Assembly (NCBI RefSeq): GCF_024732245.1
Contig: NZ_CP093845.1
Span: 1,178,001-1,242,000, forward strand
DNA from: Dietzia sp. B32
Lineage (GTDB): Bacteria; Actinomycetota; Actinomycetes; Mycobacteriales; Mycobacteriaceae
DNA length: 64,000 nucleotides
Reading direction: 5' to 3'
The notes under the pieces were generated by a model that did not search any database, was not told where the DNA came from, and saw nothing but the letters and a program-made list of their open reading frames with translations. Made by a program: the position numbers and the translations under genes. This document shows positions 52,176 to 54,017 of the stretch, piece by piece; position 1 is the first letter of the stretch; the number at the start of each line of letters is the position of its first letter.

Positions 52176-52952
52176 TCACTCCCCGCGCCACTGCGGGGTG
52201 CGCTTCTCCAGGAACGCGGTCATGCCCTCCTGGGCGTCACAGGTGACGGCGTTGGTGGCCATCGTCTCGGCCATTTCGCGGTACGCCTCGTCCTGGGGCA
52301 GGTCGATCTGCAGGTAGAAGGCCTGCTTGCCGATCTCCAACGTCAATGGGCTGGCGTCGGCGATCTGCACCGCGAGTTCGTCCGCCCGGGAGCGCAGCCG
52401 GTCGGCGGGGACCGCCTCGTTGATCAGTCCCCAGTCCACGGCGGTGGCGGCGTCGATGGTCTCGCCGGTCAACAGCATCTGCATGGCGCGCTTGCGACCG
52501 ACGGCGCGGGAGACCGCCACCATCGGGGTGGAGCAGAACAGGCCGATCTTCACGCCGGGGGTACCGAAGCGTGCGGTGTCGACGGCCACGGCCAGGTCGC
52601 AGGTGGCGACGAGCTGGCATCCTGCGGCTATCGCGTGGCCCTGCACCTCGGCGATCACCGGCTGCCTGATCGCCTGGATGGTCTCCATGAGCTGGACGCA
52701 GGTGGTGAAGACCTCGCGCTCCTGCGTGAGCGAGCGGTCGACCATCTCGCTGATCTCGTGTCCGGCGGACAGCGCGGGTCCCGAGCCGGTGAGCACGACG
52801 ACCCGGCAGTCCGGGTCGTCACCGAGGTCGCGGATCGCCCCCGTCGCCTCCCGCATCATCTGCAGGGAGAGCGGGTTGCGCCGCTCGGGCCGATCGAGGG
52901 TGACGCGCGCGATCGGGCCGCTGCGCTCGACGAGGACGAACGGGGTGCTCAT
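52176..52952 (-). CDS. Enoyl-CoA hydratase/isomerase family protein
   Basis: 258 aa crotonase. PERRNPLSLQMMREATGAI, the oxyanion-hole strand ALSAGHEISEM and QGHAIAAGCQLVATCDLAVA are family features. The second catalytic Glu expected in classic hydratases (position after GVKIGLFCSTPM) is not evident, so isomerase, dehalogenase-like or other crotonase chemistry is possible. Single gene. Confidence 0.9.
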   Translation of the reverse strand: MSTPFVLVERSGPIARVTLDRPERRNPLSLQMMREATGAIRDLGDDPDCRVVVLTGSGPALSAGHEISEMVDRSLTQEREVFTTCVQLMETIQAIRQPVIAEVQGHAIAAGCQLVATCDLAVAVDTARFGTPGVKIGLFCSTPMVAVSRAVGRKRAMQMLLTGETIDAATAVDWGLINEAVPADRLRSRADELAVQIADASPLTLEIGKQAFYLQIDLPQDEAYREMAETMATNAVTCDAQEGMTAFLEKRTPQWRGE

Positions 52953-53114: not shown

Positions 53115-53249
53115 TCAGGTCGCGGCGGTCCCGTGCCGGCCGTCGCACCACTGCTCGGCGGGCACGGTGGCCTTCACCTGGTCGACGTGCTCACCGCAGC
53201 CGTCCCAGGTGGTCTTGCCGCAGACGGGGCAGGTGACGGGGTAACACAT
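53115..53249 (-). CDS. 44-aa Cys-rich small protein behind a CsoR/RicR-like operator
   Basis: ATG at 53249 with GAGGAG at ideal spacing. The protein begins MCYPVTCPVCGKTTWDGCGE and has Cys at 2, 7, 10, 18 and 35 and His at 21 and 39. C7-P-V-C10 plus C18 or H21 suggests a small zinc-ribbon or metal-binding knuckle. I recall similar short proteins in other actinobacteria as hypothetical. The promoter region carries TACCC-TAGG-GGGTA (53275-53288), the pattern of CsoR/RicR copper operators, overlapping a TATGTA -10 (53276-53271). A copper-induced metal-binding or storage role is the hypothesis; zinc binding in a structural role is the main alternative. Confidence 0.75.
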   Translation of the reverse strand: MCYPVTCPVCGKTTWDGCGEHVDQVKATVPAEQWCDGRHGTAAT

Positions 53250-53274
53250 AAGAATCTCCTCAGATCCGACTACA

Positions 53275-53288
53275 TACCCTAGGGGGTA
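53275..53288. promoter_or_regulatory. CsoR/RicR-like copper operator TACCC-TAGG-GGGTA
   Basis: Inverted half-sites TACCC (53275-53279) and GGGTA (53284-53288), with four bases between them, in the extended form ATACCCTAGGGGGTA. From memory, CsoR operators (TACCC-TACG-GGGGTA) and RicR sites (TACCC-N5-GGGTA) have this form. It overlaps the likely -10 of the 44-aa gene, so a repressor there would block transcription until metal binds. Confidence 0.6.
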
Positions 53289-53304
53289 CGCCTGTGAGGG
53301 TAGG

Positions 53305-53964
53305 TCAGTTCTCGTCCGGGCGCCACACGGCGTCCACGGCGGACGTCGCCTCCCTCAAGTGTTCGACGTGGGCCTCACACGCCTCCCACTGTGGCAGCCG
53401 CCCCGCGGCGGCGACGTCGAGCAGGCTCGGGGCGTCGCGGTCGCGCTCGCTCATGACGTGCTCGATCGAGGTGCCGTCGAGGGCCGTCCCCGGCCAGTCG
53501 ATGGCGATCTTGGGGTCGAACGCGTCGATGACGTGCTCGGCCCCGGGGCGCCACCCCTCCGAGCAGAAGTACATCACCGTGGACTGCGGCTCGAGCGCCA
53601 GGAAGCCGTGCGCCACGCCCTCGGGGATGTAGAGGGCCCGCTGCTCGACCGAGTCGAGGATGACCCCGGCCCACTCGCCGAACGTCGGCGAGCCCACCCG
53701 GATGTCCACCACCACGTCGAACACGGTGCCGGACGGGCACAACACGTACTTGGCCTGACCGGGCGGGACCTCCGCGAAGTGCAGGCCGCGCAGCACACCC
53801 TCCCCGGAGACCGAGACGTTGACCTGCGCGAGGTCGAAGCGGTGGCCGGTCATACGGCGGAAGTTCTCGTCGGTGAACGCCTCGTGGAACACCCCGCGGT
53901 CGTCGGAGATCTGCCGAGGGGTGATCTCCCACGCCCCCGACACGCTGAGCTCGCGCAGCTGCAC
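53305..53964 (-). CDS. rmlC: dTDP-4-dehydrorhamnose 3,5-epimerase
   Basis: 219 aa cupin enzyme. ISDDRGVFHEAFTDENFRRM, VNVSVSGEGVLRGLHF with the catalytic His, and YIPEGVAHGFLALEP are RmlC hallmarks. GTG at 53964 follows AGGAAGG. It supplies dTDP-L-rhamnose together with RmlB, RmlA and RmlD; these are encoded 3 kb away, after three other genes. C-terminal 20 residues are variable. Confidence 0.95.
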   Translation of the reverse strand: MQLRELSVSGAWEITPRQISDDRGVFHEAFTDENFRRMTGHRFDLAQVNVSVSGEGVLRGLHFAEVPPGQAKYVLCPSGTVFDVVVDIRVGSPTFGEWAGVILDSVEQRALYIPEGVAHGFLALEPQSTVMYFCSEGWRPGAEHVIDAFDPKIAIDWPGTALDGTSIEHVMSERDRDAPSLLDVAAAGRLPQWEACEAHVEHLREATSAVDAVWRPDEN

Positions 53965-54017
53965 GTCGGTCCCGCCTTCCTGTCGTCTGTCGATCCGACC
54001 CGTGGATCCCGACCACC

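Follow-up and report, generated by a model that had tools for sequence, protein, structure and literature searches.

Two kinds of regulon, governed by repressors of one family (PF02583), are the closest described relatives of the locus presented here. One is the CstR regulon, known from Staphylococcus aureus (CstR) and Streptomyces coelicolor (ScCsoR/SCO0620), with persulfide dioxygenase, rhodanese and TauE as partner genes. ScCsoR, a sensor of sulfane sulfur and persulfides, binds ATACC-n6-GGTAT, which has the geometry of a four-base (N4) spacer, and the published S. coelicolor circuit consists of four genes, none coding for a small Cys/His protein (PMC7533328). The other is the copper CsoR/RicR regulon (csoR-copZ-copA, or MymT in Mycobacterium tuberculosis), in which a similar palindrome is used: the copper CsoR of Streptomyces lividans binds ATATACCCCTNAGGGGTATAT, with a five-base (N5) spacer, TAC-X9-GTA (PMC3902906). 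Spacer length matters in this family, as changing it by one base costs the related Thermus repressor TTHA1953 10-15-fold in affinity, and TTHA1953 and CsoR paralogues do not cross-bind (PMC10318464). Small proteins have been described in comparable settings, such as TusA/DsrE in CstR-type clusters (the yrk cluster of Bacillus licheniformis), which are co-regulated with persulfide enzymes (PMC9918477). Mouse metallothionein-3, which is small and rich in Cys, binds zinc and sulfane sulfur together and is reduced by thioredoxin (PMC12618007).

The Dietzia sp. B32 system shares with the CstR regulon its N4-type operator, its partner genes and a CstR-type repressor devoid of the copper His, but departs from the S. 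coelicolor circuit in having a small Cys/His-rich protein, and from the copper regulon in its spacer, N4 at the small gene instead of N5. With a probability of about 0.74, this gene belongs to a CstR-type persulfide regulon as a metal-binding member.

A small Cys/His-rich gene and its family

The window, a stretch of 64,000 nucleotides of the Dietzia sp. B32 genome, carries the following features around the gene:

52176..52952, reverse strand: enoyl-CoA hydratase, downstream neighbour, outside the system (Pfam)
53115..53249, reverse strand: Cys/His-rich small protein of 44 residues (open reading frame, homologues, conservation, pN/pS)
53255..53261, reverse strand: ribosome binding site GAGGAGA (sequence; conserved in 20 Dietzia orthologues)
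53275..53288, no strand assigned: predicted CstR-type operator TACCC-TAGG-GGGTA, four-base spacer (spacer code; intact in 15/20 congeners)
53305..53970, reverse strand: RmlC-like dTDP-4-dehydrorhamnose 3,5-epimerase, upstream neighbour, outside the system (Pfam/NCBIfam)

The reading frame translates into MCYPVTCPVCGKTTWDGCGEHVDQVKATVPAEQWCDGRHGTAAT, with five Cys and two His in 44 residues, and its strong ribosome site, kept in congeners, lies 5 nt ahead of the ATG. An earlier note on this DNA had proposed a real, tiny Cys-rich gene with a good ribosome site, preceded by the TACCC-TAGG-GGGTA operator and overlooked by annotation; sequence and conservation agree with the first point, the operator is present at 53275-53288, and the frame is without an annotated feature in 38 of the 40 plasmid records listed, where the gene table is incomplete. 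The additional claim that the operator overlaps a -10 element was not confirmed, as the promoter scan gave no consensus promoter. The gene usually escapes annotation because of its small size. For example, the homologous frame of the Curtobacterium plasmid pC1a (L320 4001-4162) is absent from the public annotation; it sits between a "metal-sensitive transcriptional regulator" of the CsoR family and a rhodanese-DsrE-TauE-trxA-MBL array. Literature searches for the peptide motif returned nothing relevant, profile searches found no Pfam or NCBIfam model for the small protein, and the PDB search yielded no relative except short zinc-finger-like stretches.

The small protein is a member of a large, widespread and unnamed actinobacterial family. 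Among the 297 genomes of the class, 122 have a member, and the family reaches 52 of the 106 genera, among them Dietzia, Rhodococcus, Corynebacterium, Arthrobacter and Clavibacter, and also in streamlined genomes of 1.2-1.5 Mb. The family was recovered in all 22 congeners searched (in G012 weakly, at 55%, the level of a paralogue), and pairwise comparison of 20 Dietzia orthologues gives a pN/pS of ~0.37, with changes falling mostly at third positions. Members range from 34 to 66 residues, and the window protein is a short form of the pattern MCxxxxCxxCGKxTWxGCGxHV...C, without the F-x-x-R-L-F-like C-terminal tail that characterizes the longer homologues (108 of 197 sequences). The genome itself encodes a long-form paralogue of 56 residues (G000:C1:804922-805089; L033 4923-5090), ending in the tail FFAKMFSR and bearing a TACCC-CTAG-GGGTA operator 105 bp upstream. 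At L188, L193, L205 and L255 two family members are adjacent, in many cases a long form paired with a short one. The small gene is also kept at L224, L259 and L264 (genomes of 1.2-1.3 Mb) and L244 (~1.6 Mb), where neither operator nor sulfur neighbour was found and the class-wide search detected no CstR-type protein.

Operator sites and the neighbourhood of homologues

The exact pattern TACCC-N4-GGGTA occurs only six times in the 3.73 Mb genome (G000) and stands before both copies of the small gene, so the window operator is more than a chance match. Only exact sites were counted genome-wide, because counts allowing one mismatch did not rise above the reversed-pattern control (56 vs 87). One of the six, at G000:C1:1080815, lies within the gene for ribosomal protein L4 and is regarded as a chance occurrence. 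The other five are promoter sites, one each before the small gene, its paralogue, a CstB-like operon, a cstR-like gene and a thioredoxin gene. The CstB-like gene, of the metallo-beta-lactamase/rhodanese type, has rhodanese and TauE genes behind it. Behind the thioredoxin gene come an NDMA-dependent alcohol dehydrogenase gene and then the cstR-like gene, a CsoR-family gene of CstR type that has an N4 site of its own. The CstR-type repressor of this genome (G000:C1:1026505-1026831, reverse strand) has two Cys and no copper His (...SCKEIVTQ...ENIQECIA).

At L034 (4025-6740), two N4 operators frame the genes for thioredoxin, NDMA-dependent alcohol dehydrogenase, the cstR-like repressor and a DUF302-like protein, an unusual link between a persulfide-type repressor and an alcohol dehydrogenase. 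A formaldehyde (FrmR) reading of the cstR-like gene behind this dehydrogenase, which is of the NDMA-dependent type with a weaker match to S-hydroxymethylmycothiol dehydrogenase, fits less well than CstR, because another N4 site stands ahead of a gene resembling persulfide dioxygenase, and because this repressor carries two Cys and no copper-type His.

Within Dietzia, 15 of the 20 orthologues have an intact operator, at a distance from the start codon that varies from 39 to 96 bp, and the other five (L003, L004, L006, L007 and L017) lack one. L006 retains a half site, GATACCCATC, which suggests a recent loss of control.

Homologous loci were assembled in two sets, 80 named loci chosen by similarity and 100 loci that are mostly an even sample of the class, plus some near relatives. 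An exact N4 operator stands within 160 bp upstream of the gene in 35 of the 100 loci, where N3 and N5 spacings occur once each, the other spacings tried not at all, and shuffles gave 0/2000. Where the operator is absent, the gene often lies behind cstR, a CstB-like gene or a reductase gene. A CstR-type gene is found within 6 kb in 49 of the 100 loci, and the other neighbours include rhodanese (41), DUF302 (20), CoA-disulfide/persulfide-reductase-rhodanese (19), CstB-like (18) and TauE (14) genes. Altogether, 80 of the 100 loci carry either the operator, with one mismatch allowed and within 250 bp, or a sulfur neighbour, and 20 have neither. In control regions from the same genomes (40 arbitrarily placed stretches of 12 kb), a sulfur neighbour was encountered in 2/40, and no N4 or N5 site in 485 kb. 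Membership of the small gene in the regulon is, on these computational grounds, well supported.

Across genomes, the small gene and a CstR-type protein co-occur with an odds ratio of 5.6 (p 9e-12, a statistic that ignores phylogeny). The association is incomplete, as 31 of the 122 genomes with the small gene are without a CstR-type protein; together with the 20 bare loci, this means that the function cannot be tied to CstR in every case. In relatives of some of those 31 genomes the gene lies directly behind a CoA-persulfide-reductase-like gene, so the role of the small protein is probably broader than CstR control.

Conserved ligands and candidate role of the protein

Which residues could support such a role? 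C7, C10, C18, H21 and C35 are invariant in 197/197 distinct sequences and C2 in 193/194, in a set of which a part was chosen by a pattern containing some of the conserved residues, while the 100-locus set was not so chosen. The C-terminal ligand alternates between CxGH (126 of the 197 sequences), CxC (45) and CxGxH (25). A position that alternates between His and Cys is typical of metal ligands, and because of this alternation the small protein is likely to bind metal, probably Zn(II). A zinc-type site is suggested by the near-invariant Cys2, Cys7, Cys10, Cys18, His21 and Cys35 and the C-terminal His/Cys, of which C7-x2-C10-x7-C18-x2-H21 could hold one Zn(II), and C2, C35 and the terminal His/Cys may form a second site or a set of reactive thiols. 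The AlphaFold model, of moderate confidence (pLDDT 82, pTM 0.56), consists of a beta hairpin and a short helix; searching structures with it gave no E below 1 and no Z of 2 or more, with weak zinc-finger-like Foldseek matches.

The proposed sequence of events is modelled on S. coelicolor ScCsoR, by analogy with which the CstR-type repressor of this genome would bind the N4 palindrome at 53275-53288 and keep the promoter off. Persulfide or polysulfide would modify the CstR cysteines and release the repressor from the operator, and the 44-residue protein would then be made together with the persulfide dioxygenase-rhodanese, the rhodanese, the TauE exporter and thioredoxin. It would fold round its metal, probably Zn(II), at the C7-to-H21 motif, with C2, C35 and the C-terminal His/Cys as second ligand or thiol set, and could serve as a sulfane-sulfur/zinc handler, that is, an acceptor, buffer or adaptor for persulfide-clearing enzymes. 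We infer sulfur handling, and the protein probably belongs, so far unnoticed, to the cell's equipment against toxic sulfur species; its biochemical role, taken on its own, is held more tentatively, at somewhat less than even odds.

It is rather unlikely, though conceivable, that the protein represents a new functional class, a zinc-persulfide protein that would take up sulfane sulfur on its Cys ligands and hand this sulfur on to rhodanese, persulfide dioxygenase or CoA-persulfide reductase, as a bacterial counterpart of the zinc-persulfide cluster in metallothionein-3. That mouse protein is a precedent only, with no sequence relationship shown to the window protein, and has a much higher Cys content. 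The window protein has no recognisable match to metallothionein families in Pfam, NCBIfam or the PDB, so that its unlikeness to MymT, already pointed out from the letters, stands. Like TusA/DsrE, it is small and, by prediction, co-regulated with persulfide enzymes, but it has no Pfam relationship with them, matches none of their profiles and differs in its Cys/His pattern. What is new is the family of small proteins; the kind of regulon is a known one.

Among the alternatives, the one that survives best keeps the regulon and sees in the protein a zinc-finger adaptor or regulator whose partner is a protein or nucleic acid, and which itself neither carries nor buffers sulfur or zinc. The C-x2-C-x7-C-x2-H spacing, the hairpin and helix of the model and the Foldseek matches, none of them significant, speak for it, and a partner-binding Zn finger would show the same sequence features; however, the invariant C2 and C35 and the C-terminal His/Cys exceed the needs of a single zinc site, and we regard this alternative as possible but doubtful.

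Spacer length and the copper alternatives

Copper-type csoR genes, defined by a His located four positions ahead of the second Cys, have an N5 spacer at all 20 loci with an exact site in this genome and its relatives, and the only N5 site of this genome, TACCC-TAGGG-GGGTA, stands before csoR-copZ-copA. At the CstR-type loci with an exact site, which were mostly drawn from near the small gene and so do not sample CstR genes independently, the spacer is N4 in 13/14, N3 in 1/14 and never N5. The window operator, with four bases, is not of the copper type.

Dual control of the N4 site by CsoR (copper) and CstR (persulfide), as part of a shared thiol and metal stress, might be envisaged since the two operators differ by one spacer base and, as can be inferred, both stresses attack thiols; this is quite improbable, given that the spacers are cleanly separated across genomes and that the Thermus paralogues do not cross-bind (PMC10318464). 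Slightly less probable still is a peptide that CsoR/RicR regulates in response to copper and that serves in copper binding or copper signalling. The earlier note had assigned the operator to this copper type, and was right as to a small Cys-rich protein (five Cys, two His) under an operator of the CsoR family, but the copper branch finds no support: copper-type operators here and in relatives all have N5, as have the published copper sites (PMC3902906), no copper CsoR occurs within 6 kb in the 100 homologous loci, and copper genes are limited there to one CopZ and one CopA match. Spacer, genome-wide sites and homologue neighbours fit CstR, and copper is rejected as the main explanation. A spurious reading frame, which extreme shortness and missing annotation in most public plasmid records might suggest, is refuted by conservation: pN/pS is 0.37, the ribosome site is kept, homologues occur in 52/106 genera and the ligands are invariant.

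In Actinobacteria, the small gene seems to be a common component of persulfide defence that has been overlooked. The one-base difference in spacer length provides a simple rule for assigning operators in actinobacterial genome sequences to copper CsoR or to persulfide CstR, and makes regulon prediction in this repressor family directly testable.
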